This document shows positions 1,322-8,966 of a stretch of 8,966 bases of DNA, in pieces. The stretch lies in assembly GCA_900556665.1 (NCBI GenBank), contig USPX01000070.1, forward strand, positions 1-8,966. Reading direction: 5' to 3'. The notes under the pieces are model-generated. The model was not told the DNA's origin and did no database searches. It was given only the letters and a program-made list of their open reading frames with translations. The position numbers and the translations under genes are program-made. The first letter of the stretch is position 1. Every line of letters starts with the position of its first letter. Source of the stretch: an uncultured Eubacteriales bacterium. GTDB lineage: Bacteria > Bacillota_A > Clostridia > Lachnospirales > Cellulosilyticaceae.

Positions 1322-3736
1322 TTACTTTGCTTTTTTAAAACTTCTACTCATAATAAGTACTATACTTACTGCAAGTAATACGCCAAGGGCAAGCCATATG
1401 CCTAATACTTTTACTGCAAAGGCTACAAACCATGCAATCACACATTGTAAAACAACTACTATAATTGCCCCTCTTCTTCCAAGCTCACGTTTTACTGCTG
1501 CAATGGCTGCAACACATGGTGTATAAAGCAGTGAAAAGATTAAAAATACTAAAGCTGTACTTGAAGTAAACAGCATATTTAACCCTTCTGTGCTGCCCCC
1601 TAGAAGTACTGTTAATGTACTTACTACACTTTCTTTAGCTGTGAAACCAGTAATAAGTGCAGTAGAAATACGCCAGTCATTAAAGCCTAATGGTGCAAAG
1701 ATTGGTGCAATAAGTCCACCTAATAAGGCTAACATACTATTTGCTGAATCTGTTACCACATTTAAACGTGTATCAAAGCTTTGTAGGAACCAAATCAAAA
1801 TAGATGCAATGAAGATGACTGTGAAAGCTTTAGATATAAAGTCTTTAGCTTTATCACCAATAAGCTGCATAACACTTTTTACACTTGGCATACGATAGTT
1901 TGGAAGCTCCATAACAAATGGTACAGGCTCTCCTTTAAATGTAGTTTCTTTCAAGATTAATGCAAAGAAGATTGCCACTATAATTCCCATTAAATATAAA
2001 CCAATCATTACAAGTGCTTGATATTTAGGGAAGAATGCTGCTGTAAATAAAGCATAAATAGGCAGCTTAGCTGAGCAGCTCATAAATGGTGTTAAAAGAA
2101 TTGTCATCTTTCTATCACGATCTGATGGCAATGTACGTGTGGCCATAATAGCTGGTACAGAACATCCAAATCCAATAAGCATAGGTACAAAGCTTCTTCC
2201 TGATAGCCCAATCTTACGTAATAATTTATCCATTACAAAGGCTACCCTTGCCATATAACCACTATCTTCTAATATTGATAAGAAGAAGAATAATACAACG
2301 ATAATTGGTAAGAAACTAAGCACACTTCCTACCCCTGCAAAAATCCCATCAATGATAAGAGACTGCATAACTGGGTTAATACCATAATGGGTTAACGCAT
2401 GATCACAAATTTCTGTAATCCATCCAATTCCCATTTCCATTAAGTCAGATAAAGCCGCACCTATTACACCAAATGTAAGCCAAAAGATTAAGCCCATAAT
2501 GCCCACAAATGTTGGAAGGGCTGTATACTTACCTGTAAGAATCTTATCAATAGCCACACTACGTTTATGTTCTTTACTCTCATGAGGTTTTACAACTGTA
2601 CGTTCACATACCCCTTCAATAAAGTTAAATCGCATATCAGCCAGTGCTGCTAATCTATCTGTACCACTTTCTTGTTCCATTTGATAGATAATATGATTTA
2701 CCATTCTCTTTTCATTTTCATCTAATTGTAATGTTTCTAGAATGAGCTCATCACCTTCAACTAATTTAGTAGCTACAAATCTAGGTGGCAACCCTACACG
2801 CTTTGTATGATCTTCTATTAGATGTAAGATTCCGTGAATACAGCGGTGAATGGCTCCACTTCTCTCTTCACTACAAAAATCCATGCGACCAGGATGTTCT
2901 CTATATTTAGCTACGTGAATCGCATGTTGTATAAGTTCATCAATCCCCTCATTTTTAGCCGCTGAAATAGGCACAACTGGTATACCTAATAAACCTTCTA
3001 ACTCATTAATCATGATAGTGCCACCATTTTCTTTCACTTCATCCATCATGTTTAATGCCAGTACCATAGGAATATTTAATTCAATAAGCTGCATAGTTAA
3101 ATATAAGTTACGTTCAATATTGGTAGCATCTACTATATTAATAATACCGTGTGGTTTTTCGTTTAATATAAAATCTCTTGTTACAATCTCTTCACTTGTA
3201 TAAGGTGATAGTGAATAAATTCCTGGTAAGTCTGTTACATTTGTATTTTTATTTTTTCGAATCATACCGTCTTTACGGTCTACTGTTACCCCAGGGAAGT
3301 TCCCTACATGTTGATTAGATCCTGTTAATTGATTGAATAATGTCGTCTTGCCACAATTTTGATTACCTACTAAAGCAAACTTTAACACTTCATTATCTGG
3401 TACAATTCTACCACTCTTTTTAAGTGGATATCTTCCCACCTCACCTTTTTGAGGATGGGCAACTACTTTAATTCTATCTTTATACTTTTTAATGTCCTCA
3501 TGGGCTGTATGTATATCTTTAAGTGCGATATATGCTGCATCTTCTTTACGAAGTGTAAGTTCATACCCTCTTACCCTAATTTGAATCGGGTCTCCCATAG
3601 GCGCCATCTTGATTACCGTAATCTCTGTGCCAGGCGTTAGACCCATATCTAGTATATGCCTTCTCAGTGATTCACTACTACATGCTACACTTTCGATAAT
3701 CGCATCTTTACCTATCTCTAAATCTGCCAATGTCAT
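1322..3736 (-). CDS. feoB: FeoA-FeoB fusion, ferrous iron transport protein B
   Basis: An 804-residue inner-membrane Fe(II) importer with a FeoA domain fused at its N terminus. Residues 1-75 are FeoA-like (SH3-type, with RRHILDMGLTPGTEI and the RVRGYELTLRKEDA ending). A linker of about 40 residues leads to the cytoplasmic G domain: G1 GNQNCGKT (124-131), switch region GNFPGVTVD (145-153), G3 DLPG (169-172), G4 NMMD (229-232) and G5 SAAKNEG from 258. A helical spacer (270-390) precedes the multi-helix membrane part from about residue 405, with the conserved cysteines GFGCSVPA (Cys525), MSCSAKLP (Cys554) and YTPC (Cys741). A separate feoA is not needed. The ATG at 3734-3736 is 8 nt after AAGGAG. 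The Cys-rich membrane peptide gene lies 163 bp upstream with no clear promoter or terminator between, so both probably share the Fur-type promoter at 4146-4174. Confidence 0.96.
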   Translation of the reverse strand: MTLADLEIGKDAIIESVACSSESLRRHILDMGLTPGTEITVIKMAPMGDPIQIRVRGYELTLRKEDAAYIALKDIHTAHEDIKKYKDRIKVVAHPQKGEVGRYPLKKSGRIVPDNEVLKFALVGNQNCGKTTLFNQLTGSNQHVGNFPGVTVDRKDGMIRKNKNTNVTDLPGIYSLSPYTSEEIVTRDFILNEKPHGIINIVDATNIERNLYLTMQLIELNIPMVLALNMMDEVKENGGTIMINELEGLLGIPVVPISAAKNEGIDELIQHAIHVAKYREHPGRMDFCSEERSGAIHRCIHGILHLIEDHTKRVGLPPRFVATKLVEGDELILETLQLDENEKRMVNHIIYQMEQESGTDRLAALADMRFNFIEGVCERTVVKPHESKEHKRSVAIDKILTGKYTALPTFVGIMGLIFWLTFGVIGAALSDLMEMGIGWITEICDHALTHYGINPVMQSLIIDGIFAGVGSVLSFLPIIVVLFFFLSILEDSGYMARVAFVMDKLLRKIGLSGRSFVPMLIGFGCSVPAIMATRTLPSDRDRKMTILLTPFMSCSAKLPIYALFTAAFFPKYQALVMIGLYLMGIIVAIFFALILKETTFKGEPVPFVMELPNYRMPSVKSVMQLIGDKAKDFISKAFTVIFIASILIWFLQSFDTRLNVVTDSANSMLALLGGLIAPIFAPLGFNDWRISTALITGFTAKESVVSTLTVLLGGSTEGLNMLFTSSTALVFLIFSLLYTPCVAAIAAVKRELGRRGAIIVVVLQCVIAWFVAFAVKVLGIWLALGVLLAVSIVLIMSRSFKKAK

Positions 3737-4310: not shown

Positions 4311-7394
<3,084 letters not shown>

Positions 7395-7489: not shown

Positions 7490-7534
7490 AAGGAGCTAAC
7501 TTGAAATTATAAATAACTTCAAGTTAACTCCCTT
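7490..7534 (-). terminator. Intrinsic terminator downstream of the SLH gene and the palindromic element
   Basis: The arms 7490-7505 and 7518-7534 form a stem of about 16 bp with one bulged base and a G-U pair in the minus-strand RNA, around a 12-nt loop. The transcript continues UUAUUUUUUUAG. The T-tract exists only on the minus-strand side. It probably was the SLH gene's own terminator before the element inserted between them. Confidence 0.8.
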
Positions 7535-7620: not shown

Positions 7621-7629
7621 TCCTCCAAA
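7621..7629. repeat. 9-bp direct repeat, left copy (putative target-site duplication)
   Basis: TCCTCCAAA here is repeated exactly at 7864-7872 in the same orientation. The two copies bracket the 234-bp palindromic element, as expected for the staggered-cut duplication left by a transposase. Confidence 0.65.
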
Positions 7630-7863
7630 GTTTCTAAATGATAGCTGGGGTAGTGAGGGCTTAGAAACTGCCTGTGGAGTAATTTCATGATAGTCTTAGT
7701 GAAGATAGTCAAAGAGCCTTTAGCTGTGCTGTTTGAGCAGCGCACGCTTTATCGCGTTGCGAGTTCACAGCGTTTCTTTGACTATCGAACTTAGACTATC
7801 ATAAATTACGGAAGGAGCAGTTCTAAGCCCTCACTACCCCAGTGGACCATTTAGAATCTAAAA
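7630..7863. mobile_element. MITE-like 234-bp palindromic element inserted at the 3' end of the SLH gene
   Basis: The element is a long imperfect inverted repeat with no coding capacity. Paired blocks run from outside in: 7632-7640 with 7848-7856, a perfect 22-bp arm 7645-7666 with 7821-7842, 7687-7696 with 7793-7802, and a 12-bp block 7704-7715 with 7775-7786. The centre (7716-7774) is more GC-rich than the surroundings and folds separately. A perfect 9-bp direct repeat flanks it, typical of a target-site duplication. The outermost ends match imperfectly (TTTTAGATTCTAAATG against GTTTCTAAATG). The SLH stop codon TAG lies inside the element. No transposase is present, so mobility would need help in trans. 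I do not recognise the family. The alternative is a fixed structured 3' UTR RNA, but the flanking repeat and the restored frame favour insertion. Confidence 0.68.
7716..7774. repeat. Structured GC-rich core of the palindromic element
   Basis: Between the long arms GCTGTG (7723-7728) pairs with CACAGC (7766-7771), closing a three-way junction. Inside are a short CTG/CAG hairpin (7729-7740) and a hairpin CGCACGC/GCGTTGCG (7741-7747 with 7754-7761, one bulge). A competing hairpin, GTGCTG with CAGCGCAC (7726-7731 with 7738-7745), shares bases with it, so two folds are possible. Confidence 0.5.
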
Positions 7864-8966
7864 TCCTCCAAACCCTATATAAATTGCAATGATGATTGCA
7901 ATTGTACATGCAAGGGTTGTAAGAGCGATTACAAATCTTTTAATTACTTTCCAAATAAGTAATAAAACTAATGCAAGTACAAGGAATGTACCTAAAATAG
8001 AATATGTTTTTTGTTCTACTGGCATTTCTGCTACGTTATCTGGTGTTGTTTCATATAAAAGCATGAAGAGTTCATATAAAACTTCTGCACTTTCCGCTTT
8101 TGTAATTTGTGTTTTTGGTGTTAAACTACCACCAGATGTAATTAAACCACTTTGTACGGCTAAGGCAATATCATTTGTTGCCCATTTACCGATTTCATCT
8201 ACATCAGCAAACTTTAAATAGTCTTCTGCATGTTCTGGATAGACATAACCTTTTTGATCAGCAATTGTTCTTGCACATAAAGAAATAACTTGCTCTCTTA
8301 AAATTTTTGTATCTCCTTTAAATGTGCCATCTTGGAAACCTTTGATAATGTCATAAGTTTCACCTGATGCTACATATGGGTAGTATTTACTATCTACTGG
8401 TACATCTTTAAACTCTGTTTGAAGTGATGTATCTAAAGCAAAGAACATTTTTACAAGTGCTTCAGCGAATTCATAACGTGAGAATGTGTGTTCTGGATTG
8501 AAGCAATCATTCTCAAGTATTAAATAGCCTTTAGATACCATGAATTTAATAGCTGATTGTTGTTTCTTTGGTAGATGAGCGATATCTCTAATCTTCACAT
8601 TGTTATCTACGATTTTATAGATCCCTGAGTATTTTGTTCCAAATGAAATGCTACTTGTAGCACTTTCATATTGCCCACCCCAGTTTTGTTCTTCTTCACC
8701 ATTCATTTTAACAACTGTTGTAAACTCATCTTTTGCTTTAAATGCAAATGTGATTGTTTGATCAAGTTGTGGAATGATTTCACCATTTTCATTAATAAAA
8801 CTAATATCATAGCCTTTTTTATCATGTAAACGTTCAATTCTAATTCTAAGTCCTGCAAGGGCCTCTAAATCTTCCCCTGGAATATATACATAACTATTTT
8901 CATCAATTACAACGCGAAGTCCTGTTACACCTTCTAAATCATCCATTTTCTTAGGAAGTTGAATAA
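7858..8966 (-). CDS. SLH-domain surface protein with two C-terminal membrane helices (partial, 5' end off window)
   Basis: The frame is open to the right edge and the residues before the first in-window Met (IQLPKK) read as coding sequence, so the start lies beyond the window. Numbering from the Met at 8946: residues 1-120 form a beta-rich region with a short repeat (LEGVTGLRVVI and LEALAGLRIRI), ending YSGIYKIVD. Three SLH repeats follow at about 128-170 (FMVSKGYLI, FSRYEFAEALVKM), 180-228 (FKDVPVDSKYYPYV, IIKGFQDGTFKGD, LREQVISL) and 245-296 (FADVDEIGKWA, ALAVQSGLITSGG, ITKAESAEVLYEL). SLH repeats normally bind pyruvylated wall polymers outside the cell. Two hydrophobic helices close the protein (about 315-333 and 338-358), which is unusual for SLH proteins. 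The final Phe and TAG come from the inserted element; without it the protein would end FGGKK. Confidence 0.88.
   Translation of the reverse strand, partial: IQLPKKMDDLEGVTGLRVVIDENSYVYIPGEDLEALAGLRIRIERLHDKKGYDISFINENGEIIPQLDQTITFAFKAKDEFTTVVKMNGEEEQNWGGQYESATSSISFGTKYSGIYKIVDNNVKIRDIAHLPKKQQSAIKFMVSKGYLILENDCFNPEHTFSRYEFAEALVKMFFALDTSLQTEFKDVPVDSKYYPYVASGETYDIIKGFQDGTFKGDTKILREQVISLCARTIADQKGYVYPEHAEDYLKFADVDEIGKWATNDIALAVQSGLITSGGSLTPKTQITKAESAEVLYELFMLLYETTPDNVAEMPVEQKTYSILGTFLVLALVLLLIWKVIKRFVIALTTLACTIAIIIAIYIGFGGF
7864..7872. repeat. 9-bp direct repeat, right copy (putative target-site duplication)
   Basis: TCCTCCAAA, identical to 7621-7629. On the minus strand it is TTTGGAGGA and encodes Phe-Gly-Gly in frame near the end of the SLH protein, so it is the coding-side copy of the putative target site. 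Confidence 0.65.

Follow-up and report, generated by a model that had tools for sequence, protein, structure and literature searches.

The palindrome at positions 7630-7863 of the window (the whole stretch of 8,966 nucleotides that was analysed) is, as we read it with moderate confidence, an old copy of a non-autonomous, structured repeat of mobile type. This repeat is spread over part of the class to which Cellulosilyticum ruminicola belongs, presumably the Clostridia. The repeat family itself, and not the stop codon of the SLH gene beside it, is the point of interest. No published description of this hairpin family was recognised in the open-access literature that was searched, and the family is apparently undescribed so far.

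The palindrome lies between two perfect copies of TCCTCCAAA, at 7621-7629 and 7864-7872, which are the only occurrences of this word in the window (its reverse complement does not occur). It is made of nested inverted repeats, which pair 7645-7666 with 7821-7842 (22 bp, 100%), 7684-7700 with 7789-7805 (88%), 7704-7715 with 7775-7786 (100%) and 7629-7640 with 7848-7859 (92%). The 252-nt stretch that includes both TCCTCCAAA copies folded at -125.9 kcal/mol on the plus strand, as compared to a shuffled mean of -61.5 (z = -12.8), and at -120 kcal/mol on the minus strand, as compared to -60.0 (z = -13.0); none of 200 shuffles reached the native energy. The SLH gene, whose product has an SLH domain confirmed by Pfam, is read from the minus strand. 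In the ORF list its stop TAG is at 7858-7860, within the base of the hairpin, and the inner copy of TCCTCCAAA (7864-7872) corresponds to its FGG codons, which comparison with C. ruminicola showed to be conserved. The flank that contains the outer copy (7621-7629) is rich in purines when read on the minus strand. Behind the gene, folding and comparison revealed a hairpin resembling an intrinsic terminator (7490-7533, minus strand), which is conserved in C. ruminicola, so that the element sits between the stop and this terminator-like hairpin. The earlier note had thus described the letters correctly, with regard to the palindrome, the two perfect repeats, the stop inside the element and the terminator-like hairpin after the gene. 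Further along the minus strand, two large ORFs resemble by eye FeoB (1322-3736, 804 aa) and a LacZ-type beta-galactosidase (4311-7346, 1011 aa).

Two covariance models were built, one from 13 copies (R1) and a second one from 36 copies in the orientation of the R strand (R2), which is the strand that we propose to be the folded one; it corresponds to the plus strand of the window, and the opposite (F) strand is sense to the SLH gene. R2 matched 7667-7821 on the plus strand (131.9 bits, E 7.9e-26) and R1 matched the window on the minus strand with 157 bits, the window being among the training sequences of both models. This core (7667-7821) is bordered by two variable arms, recognised from the inverted repeat and the comparison with C. 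ruminicola, the left one at 7645-7666 and its perfect complement on the right at 7821-7842. On the R strand, the 5' half of a conserved internal loop, CTTAGTGAA, lies at 7695-7703 and its 3' half, GAACTTAG, at 7787-7794. The tip, TGTTTGA ... GAGTT, occupies invariant or nearly invariant alignment columns at 7730-7765; the coordinates of tip and loop halves were read by eye from the sequence. The tip encloses a small hairpin, which is of the GCGNAGC type in many copies and longer in the window copy.

The sequence of the stem is largely free and its pairing is kept, while the tip and the internal loop are constant. In 63 distinct copies, 92.3% of the cells were paired and double changes were found in 33 of the 34 modelled pairs, with a covariation score of 0.688 vs. 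0.173 in shuffled data. The 43 copies collected class-wide with the R-strand model behaved similarly (91.0% of cells paired, double changes in 35 of 37 pairs, score 0.704 vs. 0.180), helix 4 of this set being weaker (76.6% paired). Because both alignments were fitted to the models, they are biased towards pairing; their slid controls gave at most 0.126 and 0.125, respectively. Among 20 class-level loci, 16 could be folded (the crop was too short for the other four) and gave one long stem with the tip TGTYTGAGCGNAGCGAGTTT or variants of it. The feet of the stem were seen by eye in genome G018 to be of the GTCCGC/GCTAG types.

The R strand probably is the one that is recognised, to judge from the folding energies and from the mismatches left in the stems. 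A set of 99 R1 matches was reduced to 98 by dropping the second strand of one of them (L070, position 6078) and, for folding and mismatch counts, to 97 by leaving out a broken copy (L058, position 1020). R folded better than F in 86 of these 97 copies, by 12.7 kcal/mol on average, and on the F strand A.C mismatches outnumbered G.T (269 vs. 151), although copies within one genome are related to each other, which bears on these counts. In C. ruminicola taken alone the two kinds were about equally frequent (A.C 55 vs. G.T 50) and F folded better in 9 of 22 copies; the case for R therefore comes mainly from the other genomes. Of 43 R-strand copies, 29 have U-G at one pair of the tip, which would be A.C on F. 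The tip also looked mirror-symmetric on the F strand, an observation that was dropped after a hairpin with a GNA loop had emerged on R.

The notion of a non-coding mobile element in the earlier note is borne out in so far as the element is multi-copy, non-coding and dispersed. Blastn with the window stretch gave 22 matches in the genome of C. ruminicola (G001) and none in 23 other genomes of the family; the covariance models found more. R1 matched 8 of 24 family genomes, with at least 26, 44, 40, 50, 21, 13, 6 and 3 matches (with up to 131 candidates scored per genome), and, with a stricter filter, at least 8 of 196 genomes of the order. R2 matched at least 33 of 391 genomes of the class, many of them in multiple copies (8 candidates scored in each), and at least 47 places in G002 when 150 of 2963 candidates were scored; all copy numbers from these searches are lower bounds. 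The loci studied were mostly chosen around matches, and only locus L073 of G001 and regions of G002 were taken independently of them. A known Rfam RNA family was rejected as the identity of the element, since Rfam 15 gave no match at the gathering score at the hairpins in the window, in seven loci and in five loci searched at E ≤ 10. The matches in the tested loci lay away from the hairpins and were a cobalamin riboswitch and a T-box leader, the rest being far under the cut-offs. Phage and plasmid collections searched by blastn with the window element gave no match, and a 26-base tip pattern was absent from viral contigs. A looser tip pattern picked out six IMG/VR contigs (L222-L227), three of which (L223, L224 and L226) match R2 at E ≤ 0.001.

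As a side observation, the 47 hairpins listed on contig C1 of G002 (4,714,237 bp) lie at 0.18-0.74 and 3.19-4.49 Mb. The stretch from 0.742 to 3.189 Mb holds none of them, and 19 loci of 20 kb, taken from the middle without selection, gave one R2 match, with E 0.18. Since dnaA, recognised by eye, is at the start of the record, the copies of G002 seem to keep away from the origin-distal half. In another genome, G315, the 8 scored R2 matches are spread along the contig.

The earlier note had proposed that a recent insertion rewrote the stop of the SLH gene and replaced an original FGGKK ending. The one relative of the SLH protein found among genome contigs, in a protein search reaching close relatives only, is that of C. 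ruminicola JCM 14822 (95% identical), and this protein ends in FGGF*, followed by a related hairpin and then by a similar 3' region with the terminator. Orthologues accounted for 31 of the 34 proteins found (49-100% identity, including those of the window and of C. ruminicola). Their endings were GGF in 22, GGL in 4, GGFNVM and FKN in one each and cut or frameshifted in 3, and none was FGGKK, so that FGGKK does not stand as the original ending. The genes of G004 (67% identity) and G005 (56%) end in GGA TTT TAA and GGC TTT TAA, respectively, and the SLH copy of G006, which is broken into two frames, ends in GGFD-stop. In the 320 bases after the stop of G004 and G005 we found a terminator-like hairpin and nothing resembling the element, and R1 found no match in either genome. 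Because these genes end in GGF-TAA without such a hairpin, and that of C. ruminicola in FGGF* with one, the comparison of gene ends indicates that the ending is ancestral and was not rewritten by the hairpin. The lack of the hairpin behind the G004 and G005 orthologues is consistent with an insertion in the lineage of the window.

Nor does the copy appear to be recent, given the related hairpin already present at the same site of C. ruminicola. Of the 22 pairs of the arms, 16 are identical in the window and C. ruminicola, 4 differ on both sides and still pair, and 2 differ on one side (one now a G-T pair, the other a mismatch). The hairpin of C. ruminicola is without about 140 bases of the tip and retains CTCCATAGG, which corresponds to the CTCCACAGG motif that full copies carry on one side. 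It probably lost its tip by deletion; the less likely alternative is that, in the lineage of the window, an older hairpin gained the tip by insertion. The copy would then have arrived after the split of the G004/G005 lineage and before the split between the species of the window and C. ruminicola, probably, and the tip would have been lost in C. ruminicola after the latter.

The two TCCTCCAAA copies had also been taken for a target duplication. One of them consists of conserved codons, as described above, and the counterpart of the outer one differs in C. ruminicola. The longest word common to a 5' and a 3' flank averaged 6.46 bases within copies vs. 6.30 between copies in G001 and the window, and 6.07 vs. 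6.30, 5.85 vs. 5.87 and 5.89 vs. 6.11 in G018, G021 and G002, respectively. Shared words of at least 9 bases occurred in 2 of 24 copies in G001 and the window, one of which is the window's own, where 0.65 would be expected (chance rate 2.7%), and in none of 15, 20 and 37 copies in G018, G021 and G002, respectively. The 9-mer of the window is thus somewhat unusual, yet it is no feature of the family. Since there is no clear family-wide excess of flanking direct repeats, the repeat provides no evidence of a target duplication.

Copies were found singly, as inverted pairs and within the loop of another hairpin repeat. In G002 there are 12 inverted pairs (24 of 37 matches) and in G021 8 (16 of 20), whereas none was found among 23 matches in G001 and 15 in G018. 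The paired cores converge on F, that is, their R strands point outward. The spacer resembles another spacer of the same genome in all 12 pairs of G002 and in 7 of the 8 pairs of G021. G189, outside the family set, has an inverted pair (L115:1500-1935) between the stop of a gene and a T-box leader. The second hairpin repeat, found in G018 and G019, combines a constant loop, about 29 nt long (CTACCCACNGCCAAACCCGAGTC or nearly so), with differing, well-paired arms of 22-29 bp, which read G-rich and then as a T-run (L105:7081-7155, L107:5025-5097, L108:3613-3699, L108:7507-7581, L110:11543-11623 and L112 near 8768). Its loop is uninterrupted in six cases (5 in G018, 1 in G019). At three distinct loci (two in G018, one in G016), which account for four matches, the loop instead holds an insert of 256-271 bp, which lies between ends like AGACTGTC and GACAGTCT. 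The filled and empty loops, a comparison that covers G018, G019 and G016, not C. ruminicola, with three distinct filled loci, are the clearest sign of insertion in this analysis.

The position of the copies with respect to genes was biased in three genomes. In 16 of 23 copies of C. ruminicola, the core follows a stop codon of the same (F) strand at a distance of 15-60 nt, while placing copies at random between the genes of these loci would give 1.5; the corresponding figures were 7 of 20 in G021 (1.0 expected) and 5 of 15 in G018 (0.85 expected). In G002 only 2 of 37 copies were so placed (1.7 expected), which is no bias, and therefore the rule of the stop is not universal. In 19 distant loci (16 of the 23 class-level loci L199-L221 and 3 others), a stop faced the 3' end of R in 14, at 60 nt or less in 7 of these, as raw counts. 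The ORFs for these and the neighbour analyses were longest-ORF calls of at least 80-90 aa and not curated genes.

A full-length relative with a transposase, which the earlier note had looked forward to, did not turn up where we looked. Among the ORFs between two widely spaced inverted pairs (L111 in G018, L038/L030 in G020) no transposase was recognised by eye, and these were discarded as autonomous copies. Of the 60 ORFs in the 23 distant loci, the 20 neighbour proteins examined comprised 19 with a Pfam family, none of them a transposase, and one without a family. The terminal repeat of a larger element in G018 was also abandoned as a route to a transposase, since its 13-base pattern, searched with one mismatch allowed, was absent from G001 and occurred only 2-8 times per genome in the other 7 of the 8. 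The whole-genome search for transposases covered the Y1 family. PF01797 was found in 7 of the 8 hairpin-bearing genomes (not in G020), and all seven have a long form (226 aa or more). The best NCBIfam match was REP_Tyr_transpos for all 6 proteins tested, one of them above the cut-off. A form of about 310 aa, whose C terminus is DnaA-like in G018 and G019, occurs by eye in the same gene neighbourhood in G002, G018 and G019, and is broken in C. ruminicola. There, a RAYT-like gene in two pieces (L161, on contig C74) has by eye the same neighbours as the whole gene of the other three genomes. In the regions searched no mobilising gene was found, and neither excision nor transposition was observed.

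Several other explanations were weighed against this material. That a small transposon recently inserted with a 9-bp target duplication and replaced an FGGKK ending would account for the two perfect TCCTCCAAA flanking the palindrome, for the multiple copies and for the absence of the element behind two orthologous genes. However, C. ruminicola has FGGF* and a hairpin at the same site, GGF prevails among the orthologues and FGGKK is never seen, and the flanks show no clear excess of repeats; we hold this explanation to be highly improbable. A REPIN-like element moved by a REP-associated Y1 tyrosine transposase (RAYT) would fit the inverted pairs, the lack of a target duplication and the widespread PF01797 proteins with REP_Tyr_transpos as their best match. 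On the other hand, an R1 match lay within about 1.5 kb of only 1 of 21 PF01797 loci, a fragment in G001 (L164), and a RAYT homologue at E ≤ 1e-10 was present in 12 of 33 genomes with hairpins vs. 117 of 358 others, a comparison limited by draft genomes and by this cut-off. With 20 loci lacking a nearby hairpin and no association across the class, RAYT was rejected as the class-wide mover, and the Y1/RAYT-like candidate is not supported as a general mover. The unit of about 230 bp is also far from the 20-40 bp given for REPs in the part of the literature consulted (PMC3733652). A REPIN-like origin is thus quite unlikely.

The family might also owe its shape to snap-back copying, in which case the constant part would be the element and the variable arms would have been copied, inverted, from the target during insertion. 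Arms that differ between copies yet remain complementary, and the constant loop with differing arms of the second repeat of G018 and G019, speak for it. But paired substitutions change the arms in place, so drift alone could make them differ, and many copies share arm sequence within G018, G021 and G002, which makes this origin very doubtful. Finally, the hairpin could be a useful RNA element of the 3' UTR, for instance an mRNA stabiliser or an RNase III site, that spread and has since been maintained by selection acting on the host mRNA. The sense-orientation position behind stops, the retention with compensatory changes between two species and the place before the terminator at the SLH gene would all be explained, and the vertical persistence at the SLH site also fits. 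Against this, the C. ruminicola copy at that site is without the tip, and G002 is without stop bias. The neighbours examined are ordinary, mostly housekeeping and unrelated genes (CTP synthase, Mur ligase, hydrogenase, UvrD twice, etc.). Moreover, among pairs of neighbour proteins from different genomes, defined by sequence identity alone, none of the 10 with at least 50% identity was adjacent to a hairpin in both genomes; at 35% or more, 2 of 18 were, both at about 37%. The differing occupancy of the former pairs also speaks for a mobile repeat, and the two pairs at about 37% speak against it. For these reasons we regard a 3'-UTR element kept by selection as unlikely.

The old mobile-type repeat that we favour would work as follows. 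Its R strand would fold into a single long stem, in which the tip (TGTYTGA-GC-GNA-GC-GAGTT type) and the purine-rich internal loops are conserved, and a putative trans-acting enzyme may recognise this fold, as single-stranded DNA or as RNA. The letters of the stem would drift fast with pairing kept, either by selection for pairing or by correction of one arm templated on the other, or by both. Copies would settle alone, as inverted pairs with the R strands outward or in the loop of another hairpin repeat. Where they lie right behind stops, as in C. ruminicola and several other genomes, the F strand would become part of the 3' UTR of the host mRNA; at the SLH gene the copy lies before the terminator. 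A bolder version, which we consider rather unlikely, is a class-wide mobile nucleic acid recognised by its fold, with fixed tip and internal loops and free pairing arms (perhaps copied from the target), whose insertion would be aimed behind stops and into hairpin loops by a new kind of trans-acting enzyme.

The analysis provides a searchable covariance model for a repeat family that was detected in at least 33 of the 391 class genomes sampled and that matched nothing in Rfam 15 in the stretches tested. Its extreme covariation, together with little conservation of stem sequence, offers a test case for whether selection or templated correction of the arms keeps palindromes perfect, and the sense placement behind stops makes effects on mRNA 3' ends directly testable. 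The case also illustrates that a tidy flanking repeat and a seemingly restored C terminus can mislead.

Among bacterial repeats, the ERIC, RUP, BOX, Correia and Rickettsia palindromic elements are short palindromic repeats of roughly 100-250 bp. None of them is known to have this tip or drifting, always-paired arms. REPINs and BIMEs are doublets of REPs thought to be moved by RAYTs (PMC3116915). As far as that source describes them, they resemble the present family as dispersed, non-coding hairpins that occur as singlets and inverted pairs, are mostly intergenic and have no autonomous copy. Here, in contrast, the unit is much larger, has conserved internal loops and tip and drifting arms, and was not found to flank or to track a RAYT gene. 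Another comparison is MRSC-65-2, one of the 250 mobile or repeat candidates counted in PMC11109978 and the only one considered here, by its description in that paper, which includes a UYCCGG repeat. It shares with our family the single long stem, the strong covariation, the often dozens of copies per genome and a fold that may matter as DNA. TYCCGG occurs in 1 of 23 copies of C. ruminicola, not in the window copy, in 25 of 37 in G002, 4 of 20 in G021, 2 of 15 in G018, none of 2 in G019 and 3 of 23 distant copies. With respect to shuffled sequences, UYCCGG sites are enriched in G002 (32 vs. 5.3) and not clearly so in G021 (4 vs. 1.9), G018 (2 vs. 1.5) and G001 (1 vs. 2.5). Although the link to RAYTs failed and the unit is much larger, the behaviour of the family is akin to that of REPINs and of the candidates of PMC11109978.
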